IMG/VR virus record: IMGVR_UViG_3300023284_000636
Span: 1-52,874 of that record
Reading direction: 5' to 3' (one strand)
Source of the DNA: a virus
DNA: 52,874 bases
Below are positions 5,495 to 12,140 of this stretch, piece after piece. The stretch's first letter is position 1. Every line of letters begins with the position of its first letter. A program made the position numbers and the translations under genes. Below the pieces are notes generated by a model. The model made no database searches and had not been told where the DNA came from. It saw only the letters and a program-made list of their open reading frames with translations.

Positions 5495-5871
5495 TTGCTT
5501 TCTTTATCCTTCTTGTTTTTTGTGCTATCTTGTTTGGCTGCCTCCTGGAGACCTGGAAGAGTGATCCGGCCACTGTCTGCCATGGCCAGGCGTATCGCAG
5601 TGTTTAGAATCACTGTATAATAATCGTCCTCATGGACTTTAGGGAGAAGCCGAGCTTTAACGGCATAGTTTTGTTCGGCGGCGATCAGAGCATACAGAAC
5701 AACCCGATCGAATGGAATTGCTGCCAATATTTTCTCTTGTTTAAGTCGCCGCGCCGTTCTATCTTGAAGGGCTCGCTGCATTGCTTCTTTAGTCTGGGAA
5801 TAGGTGACCACTCCCAAACACAAGAAAAGAATGAGAACCATGATCGGGGTCGCAGTGAGTAGCTTCTTCAT
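5491..5871 (-). CDS. exported hypothetical protein
   Basis: A 126-residue protein with an N-terminal signal sequence (hydrophobic residues 8-24, then TYSQ) and a helical mature part. It ends in KNKKDKESK, the tail specified by the shared leader. The start overlaps the stop of the HNH gene (5868-5871). It could act in the periplasm or be membrane-anchored; no family recognised. Confidence 0.65.
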   Translation of the reverse strand: MKKLLTATPIMVLILFLCLGVVTYSQTKEAMQRALQDRTARRLKQEKILAAIPFDRVVLYALIAAEQNYAVKARLLPKVHEDDYYTVILNTAIRLAMADSGRITLPGLQEAAKQDSTKNKKDKESK

Positions 5872-6452
5872 GTTTCAACCTCCCGGTTAAGTGGTTTATA
5901 TAAGTGGCTATTCTCGTATATGTGCTTCCATTTTCTTGAATTGCAACTTTTACACAACGGTTGAATGTTTTCTATGTAGTCGGTTCCTCCTTCTGATAGA
6001 GGTGAAATGTGGTCTTTTGTAAGAACTGCGCTTTTTCCGCAATCGGAACACCGATAGCCATACGCTTTTTTTAATTCTTGCCATTGTTTTAATGTATGGC
6101 TACCGCTTGCTTCCTTTTCTCTTGCGTATCGTCTTGCTTTAAGATGTGCTATATTTTCCGGGTGATTTTTACAATAATTTCTATGATAAATCTGTTTTGA
6201 TTCTCCCCTTTTTCTCACACCCCTATAGGCGTTTTGATTGTAAAACGGTAGCGTTTTAACATAATCCTTATAGCATTTCATTGAGCAGAAATGAGTTTTA
6301 CTTTTTCTATAATGTGATGGGATTGTTTTTGATTCCTCGCCACAATAATCACAATAAAAATATATCGGTCTTGAATTTGCCAATCCAATTTTTCTTTTTG
6401 TTTCATCCGAATGTTTGTGTCCAGACTGAAATCCTTTTACTCCTTTAGGCAT
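5868..6452 (-). CDS. HNH homing endonuclease with NUMOD3-like N-terminus
   Basis: A 194-residue HNH endonuclease. The N-terminus (MPKGVKGFQSGHKHSDETKRKI) resembles a NUMOD3 DNA-binding module. A Cys-pair region follows (CDYCG, then CSMKC), then the C-terminal HNH core with CSDCGK, DHISPLSEGG, and CKSCNSRK. The ATG at 6452 follows TTGAGGAAAAAT; the upstream extension to 6515 would overlap the YopX gene more and lacks a ribosome binding site. Free-standing homing nuclease inserted between small genes. Confidence 0.88.
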   Translation of the reverse strand: MPKGVKGFQSGHKHSDETKRKIGLANSRPIYFYCDYCGEESKTIPSHYRKSKTHFCSMKCYKDYVKTLPFYNQNAYRGVRKRGESKQIYHRNYCKNHPENIAHLKARRYAREKEASGSHTLKQWQELKKAYGYRCSDCGKSAVLTKDHISPLSEGGTDYIENIQPLCKSCNSRKWKHIYENSHLYKPLNREVET

Positions 6453-6453
6453 T

Positions 6454-6852
6454 CTATTTTTCCTCAATAAGATTGCCATGTTCAAATATGTTGCCGATGA
6501 CTTCATAAGAGTCACACGTTTCAGTTATAGCGTGATGATGATTTTTGCTTCTTGTCCAGTATCCAGCATCCTCGTAAAAAACTTCTCCAATATATTCCCC
6601 ACAAACCACTGCGTCATCTCCACATGGTTTCCAATATTCTTTCACAAGATCCCCCTCATAAATCTCTTTGCCGTTTTTGTCCAATAGGCCGGTGAATTGC
6701 ATTAAATTGAAATCGTCTTCGTGCCATATCCACTTGTGACCTCGAACCGGTCGAGCTAATTCCTGAATTTCAAAATTCTTCAAATCTATTTGGTGAACAT
6801 CTATCATTCTCGATTCACTAACAATCCATGCCCTAAATTTAATTGGTCTCAT
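6454..6852 (-). CDS. YopX family protein, second copy
   Basis: A 132-residue YopX-family protein with MRPIKFRAW at the N-terminus, the MQFTGLLDKNGKEIYEGD block about residue 50, and a C-terminal YEVIGNIFEH. It shares these blocks with the copy at 2750 but differs elsewhere. Function of the family is unknown. Confidence 0.88.
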   Translation of the reverse strand: MRPIKFRAWIVSESRMIDVHQIDLKNFEIQELARPVRGHKWIWHEDDFNLMQFTGLLDKNGKEIYEGDLVKEYWKPCGDDAVVCGEYIGEVFYEDAGYWTRSKNHHHAITETCDSYEVIGNIFEHGNLIEEK

Positions 6853-9355: not shown

Positions 9356-9390
9356 TTAGTTCCTCACGTTGGTGAAGGTTTGAGTCGGAA

Positions 9391-9515
9391 AACCCCCACA
9401 AAGGAGGGTCTCACGTATGGAGCCAGGCCATCGCGTTGTAACCCGCTACTCACAGTTCAAACGGTTGCCAGCCAGTCGCGTTGTTTCAACCTTGCTGCTT
9501 TCGCCAACGGGGGTT
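9391..9515 (-). other. possible structured leader RNA of the methylase gene
   Basis: On the minus strand a 7-pair stem (9509-9515 with 9391-9397, Cs with Gs) encloses about 110 bases and is followed by TTTT. Inside are smaller possible stems and an imperfect direct repeat of about 18 bases (9422-9439 and 9467-9484, sharing TCGCGTTGT). It overlaps the 3' end of the 9446 gene and ends about 35 bases before the methylase start. Could be an attenuator; only weakly supported. Confidence 0.3.
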
Positions 9516-9754
9516 CTTATGTATTTACGCTGGTATATATATGATGGATCGATTTTAATATGGACATTACCGATACCACAAAATGGACACTTCATGCTAT
9601 GATAAGAATGAATCATTTCGAGAGTTGCCCATTTAATTTCTCTTCTCTCGCAATTGGCATTTGTGCAATAAACTTCTCTTTTATTGTCAACAAAACATAA
9701 TTGCCCACCATAGGAATGATGTGCTCCACATTTCCAGCAATATCGTTTTTTCAT
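9446..9754 (-). CDS. zinc-ribbon protein
   Basis: A 102-residue protein with three Cys pairs (CWKC at residues 6-9, C..NANC about 30-35, CPFC about 56-59), so probably binding one or two zinc ions. The last 20 or so residues are Arg/Asn-rich and run into the structured region 9391-9515, so the natural C-terminus may be fortuitous. Weak ribosome binding site. Confidence 0.5.
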   Translation of the reverse strand: MKKRYCWKCGAHHSYGGQLCFVDNKREVYCTNANCERREIKWATLEMIHSYHSMKCPFCGIGNVHIKIDPSYIYQRKYIRTPVGESSKVETTRLAGNRLNCE

Positions 9755-9851
9755 AAATAAACCATCATATTTTTAAAATGTTGCATCCTTTGTTTAGCTG
9801 ATGTGCCTCGGCTTACCGCATCCCCGTGCGTCTGAAACCGAAAACAAAAAA

Positions 9852-9952
9852 TGCCTATTGTAGGGATACTCTCGGCTTTCGGTCTACCTTGGGAGAAATC
9901 CCGAAATATCCGAAAGCACCCAACAATAGGCACTTCGTTTTTTCCCAAGGTA
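9852..9952 (-). ncRNA. pseudoknotted structured RNA, copy A
   Basis: Three perfect helices: P1 9852-9861 with 9923-9932 (10 pairs), P2 9875-9882 with 9910-9917 (8 pairs) and a pseudoknot 9885-9894 with 9943-9952 (10 pairs). Copy B at 10540-10648 has the same three helices in the same order with quite different bases in P1 and the pseudoknot, so pairing is conserved rather than sequence. CCGAAAGCACCCAACA and ACTCTCGGC are shared (plus-strand reading). On the minus strand P1 is followed by six T, like an intrinsic terminator. It sits between the 10024 and 9446 genes. Confidence 0.75.
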
Positions 9953-10023
9953 TAATTTTTACTAACATAACAATGTAAAATTTTATTTTTATAAAAGCAA
10001 CATAAATTTTGTAGACAACAAGC

Positions 10024-10209
10024 TTACCGCTTTTTGTTTGCGTCTGTTACCGAAGACTTTGCTTGTTGTTTGGTATTTTCGAGGCAAGTGTTTTCTATTA
10101 CTCCGTCCCAATATCCAACCAAATAATCAGTTGTGGCACTAAATCCACATTTACACTTATATCCTTTATCGGTTGATTCCATGTCTAAAAGACATTTGGG
10201 ACATTCCAT
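10024..10209 (-). CDS. zinc-ribbon protein
   Basis: A 61-residue protein starting MECPKC with a second half-ribbon CKCG (about 19-22), a helical middle with aromatic residues, and a basic C-terminus. GAGGTGAAACA gives a strong ribosome binding site. It is flanked by structured RNA on both sides. Function unknown. Confidence 0.7.
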   Translation of the reverse strand: MECPKCLLDMESTDKGYKCKCGFSATTDYLVGYWDGVIENTCLENTKQQAKSSVTDANKKR

Positions 10210-10258
10210 TGTTTCACCTCACGTTTTTAGAACAACGGCAAAGAGACCGTAAAAATAT

Positions 10259-10421
10259 GGGCAAGGACAGGGATTTGACGAGAAGGAGAGTCTCATACGC
10301 CGACAAGCTCTCCATTGCGTATTCTGAGTCTTTTTTGTTACTCGTATAGTCACCCTGCATACCTGAGATTTTTTAGTCCCAAGCTCACAAGAAAGCGTCT
10401 ACCTATTCCGCCACCTTGCCC
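10259..10421 (-). ncRNA. tRNA-Leu/Ser-like RNA with a structured insertion in the T-loop
   Basis: Minus-strand RNA with an 8-pair acceptor-like stem (10414-10421 with 10259-10266), a Leu/Ser-type D-arm (10395-10411, GCGGAATAGGTAGACGC) and a T-stem (10353-10358 with 10267-10272, one G-U). The T-loop is interrupted: removing 10279-10351 (73 bases) restores a normal TTCAAAT loop. The inserted bases fold by themselves: a 5-pair closing stem and an H-type pseudoknot (10285-10290 with 10308-10313, crossing 10295-10300 with 10317-10322). The anticodon region is irregular, with no confident anticodon. It may be a decayed tRNA, a processed one, or a tRNA mimic. Confidence 0.45.
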
Positions 10422-10435
10422 ATAAACTAAAAACA

Positions 10436-10524
10436 GGAAGTCTAAGTATCGTGCGCCTACTCAAGATAGAATCTGCTACGGCCTGTCGCACGCAATTCTG
10501 TCCAATCCCATCTTATAGACTACC
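10436..10524 (-). ncRNA. pseudoknotted structured RNA
   Basis: Outer stem 10439-10444 with 10516-10521 (plus two further pairs after a mismatch), inner helix 10463-10472 with 10495-10499 and 10510-10514 (10 pairs around a 10-base bulge), and a pseudoknot 10450-10455 with 10487-10492 (six GC-rich pairs). There is no open frame here. It lies between RNA B and the tRNA-like element and may be part of the same transcript. Confidence 0.45.
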
Positions 10525-10539
10525 CGTTTAAATTGAAAA

Positions 10540-10648
10540 TGCCCGACTTTGTTGGACACTCTCGGCCTTCGGTCGAAAGCTCCCTGGAAGAAGAAAAACC
10601 TCAAACCGAAAGCACCCAACAAAAACGGGCACTTTATATTTCCAGGGA
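10540..10648 (-). ncRNA. pseudoknotted structured RNA, copy B
   Basis: Same architecture as copy A: P1 10540-10545 with 10626-10631 and 10548-10555 with 10616-10623 (14 pairs around a small internal loop), P2 10565-10573 with 10605-10613, and a pseudoknot 10581-10589 with 10640-10648 (9 pairs). One P2 pair is G-U on the minus strand but A-C on the plus strand, which favours minus-strand transcription, as do neighbouring genes. P1 is followed by TTTTCAATTT. Starts about 50 bases after the cupin stop codon. Confidence 0.75.
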
Positions 10649-10698
10649 ATTTTCTAATTTTAACTACATCCATAATATAAAAATATTCGATTAAAATG

Positions 10699-11112
10699 TC
10701 AAGAGAATTTACACGGATGTTTTTTGTGCTCAAAAAAATATTTATTCGCTTTCTTGAATTTTCCATTTACCCAAAAACCCCACTTCCTTTTTTGGGGACC
10801 TGTTAAGAGCAAAGTCCAGACAGGACCGCCAGCACTCACACTCACAAAATGTTTATGTTCTGCTTTTCTGAAAACAATATCACCAGCTACTAAAATTTCA
10901 CCTTTGCTTTGCTCTGTATTTGTTATGTCTGCATACCAGCCCTTTAAGACAAATATGATAAAATTCCATGGATGATCATGCAAGTGCCTATCATCATCTG
11001 AAGCTGTCCATTTATGCAATCGAATTGCGAACAACCCAAAATTAATTACCCAACGTCTCATATACGGACATTCTTGCCGCCCTAAATATTCACCCCATCG
11101 TATAAAATTCAT
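10699..11112 (-). CDS. cupin-fold protein
   Basis: A 137-residue single-domain cupin-like protein. Visible hallmarks: DRHLHDHPWNF (metal-binding His pair about residues 43-46), V-L-K-G-W-Y, the second motif A-G-D-I-V-F-R with H-K-H-F-V, and W-T-L-L-L-T-G-P-Q followed by WGFW. Proteins of this type occur in many phages; the reaction is unknown. It ends just upstream of RNA B and starts just after the tRNA at 11115. Confidence 0.75.
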   Translation of the reverse strand: MNFIRWGEYLGRQECPYMRRWVINFGLFAIRLHKWTASDDDRHLHDHPWNFIIFVLKGWYADITNTEQSKGEILVAGDIVFRKAEHKHFVSVSAGGPVWTLLLTGPQKRKWGFWVNGKFKKANKYFFEHKKHPCKFS

Positions 11113-11114
11113 AG

Positions 11115-11189
11115 TACGGGCGGCGGGATTCGAACCACGCGATCTCTGCTATGTAAAACAGCGCTCTTGACCAACTGAGCTACACCCGT
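11115..11189 (-). tRNA. tRNA, probably Val(TAC), irregular anticodon loop
   Basis: A 75-base cloverleaf: 7-pair acceptor stem (11183-11189 with 11116-11122), D-arm with GCTC/GAGC and AGTTGG loop, T-arm with TTCGAAT loop. The T-stem has a bulged T, and the anticodon arm is 16 rather than 17 bases: best read as a 4-pair stem with an 8-base loop TTTACATA (anticodon TAC, Val), or a 5-pair stem with a 6-base loop. No CCA is encoded. Anticodon assignment is tentative. Confidence 0.75.
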
Positions 11190-11201
11190 GTAGTTTTTTT
11201 G

Positions 11202-11299
11202 TAGCGGTGACGGGATTCGAACCCGCAAGGCCACCAAAATGATTTAAAACAAATCAGGAGTTTTAAATCTGGTAGGTCTGCCGATTGCCTCACACCGCC
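11202..11299 (-). tRNA. tRNA-Leu(TAA)-like, irregular anticodon/variable region
   Basis: A 98-base element with a 7-pair acceptor stem (11293-11299 with 11203-11209, first pair G-U), a Leu-type D-arm (AGG..CAATCGGCAGA..CCT) and a T-arm GCGGG/CCCGT around TTCGAAT. TTTAAAA matches a Leu(TAA) anticodon loop, but the anticodon stem is imperfect and the variable region is about ten bases longer than usual. GATTTAAAAC and GTTTTAAATC form a perfect 10-pair hairpin that competes with the cloverleaf. It may be a damaged or refolded tRNA. Confidence 0.6.
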
Positions 11300-11624: not shown

Positions 11625-12140
11625 ATGAAGAAAATAAAACTTACAAATTCTTCTATAATGGCATTGGTTGATGATTCAGATTTTGATTGTATTAATAATT
11701 TTTATGAATGGAGATTAACTTCACACGGATATGTTTTTTCTTGGCTGGGTAAAGAAAAAAAAGATTTAGGAATGCACGATCTTATTATGTCCACAGCTAG
11801 CGGTTTTATCATCGATCATAAAAACCATATAACTCATGATAATCAAAGAAAAAATCTAAGAATTTGTACTAAACAACAAAATTTATTTAATCGGAAAATA
11901 AATAAACATAGATTTTTTTCTAAATATAAAGGTGTTGTGGCTGGATATAGCAAAAAATTTAGAACACAAATCGGAGTAAATAAAAAAGTAATTTATATCG
12001 GTGAATTTGAAACAGAATTTGAGGCCGCTCTTGCTTATGATGATGCAGCATTGAAATATTATGGAGAGTTTGCCTATTTAAACTATCCAGAACAAGACTA
12101 TATTTTTGAAGTCAACGATGATTTTTTAAGAAGTTACTAA
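11625..12140 (+). CDS. HNH-AP2 homing endonuclease
   Basis: A 171-residue homing endonuclease. Residues 55-85 form the HNH core (M-H, IDHKNHITHDNQRKNLR, then Q-Q-N-L-F-N), and residues 95-155 an AP2 DNA-binding domain (SKYKGVV, RTQIGV, G-E-F-x-T-E-x-E-A-A-L-A-Y-D, G-E-F-A-Y-L-N-Y). It is more AT-rich than its neighbours, as expected for a mobile gene. Confidence 0.92.
   Translation: MKKIKLTNSSIMALVDDSDFDCINNFYEWRLTSHGYVFSWLGKEKKDLGMHDLIMSTASGFIIDHKNHITHDNQRKNLRICTKQQNLFNRKINKHRFFSKYKGVVAGYSKKFRTQIGVNKKVIYIGEFETEFEAALAYDDAALKYYGEFAYLNYPEQDYIFEVNDDFLRSY

Follow-up and report, generated by a model that had tools for sequence, protein, structure and literature searches.

Two diverged copies of a structured minus-strand RNA in a tailed-phage contig, and their possible role as a duplicated attenuator

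Introduction

In transcription attenuators of the trp-leader type, the antiterminator and terminator hairpins are mutually exclusive: an early 5′ fold shares bases with a later rod and U-run, and the element directly follows its promoter. Interlocking strands are also familiar from HDV-like ribozymes, whose P1 and P2 follow the strand order a, b, a′, b′. Among phages, the put RNAs of HK022 are approximately 70 nt in length, fold into two stem-loops, lie in two divergent operons and are proposed to act on the transcribing polymerase (PMC9378689). The leader of T4 gene 32 contains a pseudoknot that constitutes the translational operator for gp32 and is situated upstream of an A+U-rich ribosome site (PMC3014915).

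The locus described here lies in a virus record of 52,874 bases, the whole of which is referred to below as the window. Its portal protein and ClpP-like head maturation protease, along with a weak terminase match, identify it as a tailed phage. Between approximately 9,355 and 11,570 the likely genes lie on the minus strand, and two tRNAs are recognised there. Two of the gaps separating these minus-strand genes are occupied by the elements A (9845-9955) and B (10533-10654), two versions of a single minus-strand RNA that have diverged from each other. Each is about 110 nt long, and they lie on the same strand, 690 nt apart, with small phage genes and Dam as neighbours. The most stable fold of either copy is a continuous rod of 24-28 bp that contains a mismatch or bulge and ends in a U-run, while a long-range helix (helix a) can pair the 5′ flank with the apical loop of the rod.

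As with the put RNAs, a single phage genome carries A and B as a related pair, of which one member lies just downstream of a promoter (PMC9378689). They differ from put in their length of ~110 nt, in joining a single rod to a long-range helix and in their arrangement on one strand 690 nt apart, and the two-stem-loop architecture of ~70 nt is not found in them. With the T4 gene 32 leader they share a probable setting in the 5′ leader of a phage mRNA and the strand order of a pseudoknot (PMC3014915), whereas the long rod, the U-run, the presence of two copies and the lack of an adjoining ribosome site set them apart. The resemblance to trp-leader-type attenuators lies in the bases common to the early fold and the later rod and, for B, in the position directly after a promoter; in contrast, helix a spans about 40 nt and could coexist with the rod, and the loop is very large. 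Neither a ligand, nor a leader peptide with a Shine-Dalgarno sequence, nor a known aptamer was found for A or B by Rfam or by reading upstream. The literature searched, mostly outside subscription journals, yielded no closer published case.

Two diverged copies of one RNA

A and B align over 84 nt at 71% identity (blastn, E about 1e-5 within the window) and have several blocks of 17-21 nt in common. At gathering score, Rfam 15 matched only tRNAs in the window and no family over A or B, where the best sub-threshold matches had E values of 0.8-1.4, far below gathering scores. A first-pass annotation made from the DNA letters had described two copies of an unnamed structured RNA, and this description is borne out: A and B are a real, unnamed structured RNA present twice within one contig. 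Of the blocks that it took to be constant, CCGAAAGCACCCAACAA is identical in the two copies and the GGAYACTCTCGGCYTTCGGTC block is 90% identical. Variation falls in helix a and the lower stem; the upper rod is nearly invariant.

Helix a is perfect in both copies, as had been noticed at first pass, its length being 10 bp (A) and 9 bp (B) (Table 1). Watson-Crick runs of this length between the 5′ flank and the loop are expected by chance, on the evidence of dinucleotide shuffles, at 0.003 for A and 0.049 for B. Three of the nine aligned pairs are changed on both sides (A-U to U-A, U-A to C-G and G-C to A-U, by direct reading), and two further two-sided changes are found in the outer stem of the RNAalifold consensus. 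Helix a has different sequences in A and B, each matching only within its own copy, so the pairing has been maintained copy by copy, which agrees with the earlier claim that pairing is kept while sequence changes.

The minus-strand assignment, likewise proposed at first pass, also stands. G-U pairs of the long stem are conserved in both copies; on the plus strand they would become C-A mismatches, which identifies the minus strand as the one that is read. Folding is also stronger there, with minimum free energy z-scores against shuffles of -7.8 (A) and -7.1 (B) on the minus strand versus -5.8 and -3.5 on the plus strand.

Table 1. Positions of the paired strands, promoter-like sequences and U-rich tails of A and B in the window
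Feature	Position	Strand	Basis or remark
B promoter, sigma70-like, TTGACA-17-TATATT, 11/12	10674..10702	minus	start expected near 10667
B helix a, 5′ strand UCCCUGGAA (plus-strand letters TTCCAGGGA)	10640..10648	minus	complementarity and shuffle test
B rod 5′ arm; the same bases form hairpin e, AAGUGCCC../..GGGUGCUU	10606..10635	minus	constrained and prefix folding
B helix a, 3′ strand UUCCAGGGA (plus-strand letters TCCCTGGAA), in rod apical loop	10581..10589	minus	complementarity, shuffle test, constrained folds
B site 1 CCGAAGGC, able to pair with GCUUUCGG in place of site 2, one G-U pair	10565..10572	minus	constrained folds
B rod 3′ arm, including site 2 CCGAGAGU at 10558-10565	10540..10565	minus	RNAalifold and constrained folds
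B U-rich tail UUUUCAAUUU, moderate, interrupted, after rod	10530..10539	minus	score 3.10; 1.1% of window positions score as high
A promoter-like sequence, weak, TTGCTT-17-TACATT, 7/12 consensus	9972..10000	minus	aligns with the place of the B promoter
A helix a, 5′ strand UACCUUGGGA (plus-strand letters TCCCAAGGTA)	9943..9952	minus	complementarity and shuffle test
A rod 5′ arm; the same bases form hairpin e, GAAGUGCCUA/UGGGUGCUUU	9910..9936	minus	constrained and prefix folding
A helix a, 3′ strand UCCCAAGGUA (plus-strand letters TACCTTGGGA), in rod apical loop	9885..9894	minus	complementarity, shuffle test, constrained folds
A site 1 CCGAAAGC, able to pair with GCUUUCGG in place of site 2	9875..9882	minus	constrained folds
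A rod 3′ arm, including site 2 CCGAGAGU at 9868-9875	9851..9875	minus	RNAalifold and constrained folds
A U-rich tail UUUUUUGUUUU, strong, after rod	9841..9851	minus	score 4.72; 0.02% of window positions score as high

Competing folds of the element

The middle strand GCUUUCGG has two possible partners, CCGAARGC and the adjoining CCGAGAGU. With helix a reserved, pairing with CCGAGAGU is favoured by 13.0 kcal/mol in A and 6.0 kcal/mol in B. As a correction to the first-pass description, this more stable pairing replaces that with CCGAARGC as the final fold. The resulting rod carries an apical loop of ~34-41 nt.

A different fold precedes the rod when growing 3′ ends are folded in a pseudoknot-free model. 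In A and B alike, the 5′ half, which is transcribed first, folds alone with helix a closing around a local hairpin (hairpin e), at energies of -25.2 and -27.2 kcal/mol; the rod lies at about -45 to -53. Within this pseudoknot-free model, the rod of either copy supplants helix a and hairpin e only once the outer 3′ arm appears. None of 1000 dinucleotide shuffles matched the early fold of A, and that of B has p 0.002. Hairpin e alone gives p 0.003 in each copy, two values that are not independent since A and B have most of its sequence in common. Hairpin e and the rod are built from the same bases and are therefore mutually exclusive, so that two exclusive folds, both beyond chance, are found as an attenuator would have them, in two related copies only.

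The strand order does permit helix a and the rod to form in one molecule as an H-type pseudoknot. Of the pseudoknot described at first pass, helix a is confirmed, and its relation to the rod allows two possibilities: the two may form together, as a true pseudoknot, or helix a may belong to the other state. In the latter case, as the folding model suggests, the apparent pseudoknot may represent one state of a two-state switch between an antiterminator and a terminator-like rod.

Promoters and U-rich tails

The near-consensus promoter of B ends about 20 nt before the element. Sites of its quality number three in the whole window against 0-4 in shuffles; the argument for a promoter therefore rests on its place next to B. 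Upstream of A the corresponding sequence is weak, and the alignment of the two upstream regions has p 0.023; the promoter-like sequence of A is perhaps related to that of B and may be inactive. An attenuator would have a GC-containing stem base with a U-run behind it; this is seen in A, and to a moderate degree in B (Table 1), but the loop is far above the usual size. Promoter, RNA and U-run may have been duplicated together, after which the promoter of A would have decayed.

Searches for relatives

Further homologues, whose absence the first-pass annotation would have counted against its proposal, were found in none of the Rfam, viral, phage and plasmid collections, nor among the prokaryote matches listed. 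Two-part and one-part DNA patterns retrieved no true homologue from the 2.9 million viral contigs of IMG/VR. In GTDB (84,980 prokaryote genomes) no homologue was present among the matches listed, and the retained loci had no model match at E <1. Pattern hits read individually either lacked the second half or lay in unrelated sequence. Queried by blastn, 50,697 phages and 72,556 plasmids yielded no matches other than tRNAs or short stretches of low score.

Phage relatives were also sought through the cysteine-dioxygenase-like protein, portal, Dam and ERF. The closest of these (portal 61-81%) are short contigs without this region, so the absence of the element from them shows little. A model of A and B found nothing in 16 related records, an empty answer that is weak in that the only positive control of the model is A and B themselves. 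In the window it matches A and B alone, together with plus-strand mirror images that arise because the rod is nearly palindromic. With no homologues found, two sequences are all that the covariation can draw on, fewer than R-scape needs.

A proposed duplicated attenuator and its alternatives

Computation shows the two copies and their strand, compensatory changes within both helix a and the outer stem, two folds that each exceed chance, a U-run in A and a near-consensus promoter at B; from these we infer termination, switching, a trigger and a working promoter for A. Judged from two copies, A and B are probably a small on/off switch of transcription. The specific reading that we favour, tentatively and at rather less than an even chance, is that of a duplicated, possibly promoter-proximal attenuator, in which A and B are each a leader or intergenic RNA with two states. 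While the 5′ half is being transcribed, helix a and hairpin e would form, keeping the 5′ arm of the rod engaged. Should the 3′ arm fail to displace this early fold, transcription would read through, from B into the tRNA-like and small genes and from A into the genes for a cysteine-rich ORF and the Dam methyltransferase. Should the 3′ arm instead capture the 5′ arm, the long rod and U-run would stop transcription and might release a structured RNA of ~125-140 nt. The overlapping CCGAARGC and CCGAGAGU sites would then offer two starting places for strand exchange by the 3′ arm. An attenuator is favoured because it explains most of the features, namely the competing folds and their order of synthesis, the U-run, the B promoter and the copy-specific helix a. 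Counted against it are the interrupted U-run of B, the weak promoter of A and an apical loop unlike that of common terminators. Additionally, the rod lies at least 20 kcal/mol below the early fold, so read-through would need a strong kinetic trap or a ligand.

The main rival to the attenuator, unlikely in our estimation but still the nearest to it, is that A and B are two versions of a stand-alone, trans-acting small RNA with its own promoter, a pseudoknotted rod and a U-run terminator, in which the conserved upper rod and the GACCGAARGCCGAGAGU strand would bind a host or phage protein or RNA, and helix a would only stabilise the fold. The promoter before B and the U-runs after both copies are consistent with such a transcript, and an almost invariant upper rod above a varying helix a and lower stem is what a protein-binding site would show. 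However, the promoter-like sequence of A and the tail of B are both weak, and a purely structural helix a leaves hairpin e unexplained. An element of mRNA processing or stability within the operon is less probable again. Rods lying between the early genes of T7 are cut by RNase III, for which 24-28 bp is long enough, and the rods of A and B, placed in gaps between minus-strand genes, could likewise be cut by an RNase III-like enzyme or shield RNA ends from exonucleases; helix a, hairpin e, the U-runs and the strict conservation of the upper rod would be unaccounted for. Slightly less probable than processing is the duplication of a simple palindromic repeat or bidirectional terminator, in which case the long-range helix would be a by-product. 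A does combine its rod with both an A-run and a U-run, and the element is palindromic enough for the model to score the plus strand too, but a by-product would hardly retain helix a through three two-sided changes at a low chance expectation in both copies, nor would it account for an early fold beyond shuffles or for the preference for the minus strand.

That the copies are a coding repeat appears very improbable. Both do lie in open frames with an upstream ATG (MLVKIIPWEK.. in A and MDVVKIRKFP.. in B), and the indels upstream of the last block, of 6, 3 and 6 nt, are all multiples of three. Against this, neither ATG is preceded by a Shine-Dalgarno-like sequence, which most of the phage genes have, the A frame stops within the element, the last indel is of 2 nt, and the complementarity is left unexplained; tblastn gave nothing or chance matches, the best of which (E 0.04) sits inside an unrelated longer frame. 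Least credible of all is a small self-cleaving double-pseudoknot ribozyme of the HDV or glmS type, an analogy drawn at first pass. The strand order partly resembles that of P1 and P2, but membership is unsupported: with the E limit raised to 10 the Rfam ribozyme models still give no match; reading and constrained folds reveal no P3 hairpin between b and a′ and, between a′ and b′, neither a P4 nor a remnant of one; pairing within the rod takes up the conserved blocks; and the neighbouring genes do not include glmS.

Beyond the attenuator reading itself, there is a small chance that A and B are the first members of a new class of noncoding RNA in phages, namely a compact promoter-RNA-terminator cassette in which a bistable long-range fold controls transcription with no dedicated protein, acting in the manner of put with another architecture. 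If the two-state reading is true, this locus would contain a small, duplicated RNA switch within a phage operon, without relatives in the collections searched, and would be a ready case for testing the refolding of nascent RNA. It would also be a sign that paralogous copies in one genome can reveal orphan phage RNAs whose rarity defeats comparative discovery.

Other features of the surrounding region

Several further candidate structured stretches surround A and B. A 19-nt repeat, 84% identical, flanks A on both sides (9827-9845 and 10039-10057; minus-strand CAGACGC..GCGGUAAGC hairpins), its upstream copy lying inside the end of a small ORF (10024-10209) with a CPKC..CKC motif. At 9360-9525 on the minus strand, another putatively structured stretch extends to the Dam ribosome site and partly overlaps the end of an ORF. 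Its strands follow the order a-b-c-a′-c′-b′ (AACCCCC/GGGGGUU, GUUGG/CCAAC and AAGGUUGA/UCAAACCUU), the order seen in A and B at first pass, and it has an internal repeat, ACAACGCGA..UGGC. Between B and the tRNA-Leu-like gene (10435-10520, minus), interlocking complementary strands were found by reading (AGUCUA/UUAGACU, AAGAU/AUCUU and GCGUGC/GCGCACG), a stretch with no Rfam match.

This RNA-rich region is also flanked by a pair of HNH homing-endonuclease-like genes, at 5868-6515 (minus) and 11625-12140 (plus), one with a NUMOD3 match and the other with an AP2 match. Directly upstream of B, a cysteine-dioxygenase-like protein (PHROG 4786) is encoded at 10699-11112 on the minus strand; its relatives occur in 15 viral loci, some of them on contigs of >290 kb.

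The tRNA genes nearby are unusual. Two odd tRNAs lie on the minus strand at 11201-11299 and 11114-11189; in the first, a tRNA-Val(TAC)-like gene, the anticodon loop carries a 22-nt insertion, and in the second the anticodon loop is 6 nt long and the anticodon unreadable. At 10259-10419 (minus), a class II tRNA-Leu(GAG) has its T arm interrupted by a 73-nt insertion (10279-10351), and deletion of precisely this insertion is the only one of 4191 trial deletions that restores a tRNA for ARAGORN. By reading, the insertion may itself form an H-type pseudoknot, with AUACGC/GCGUAU and GGAGAG/CUCUCC as its helices.
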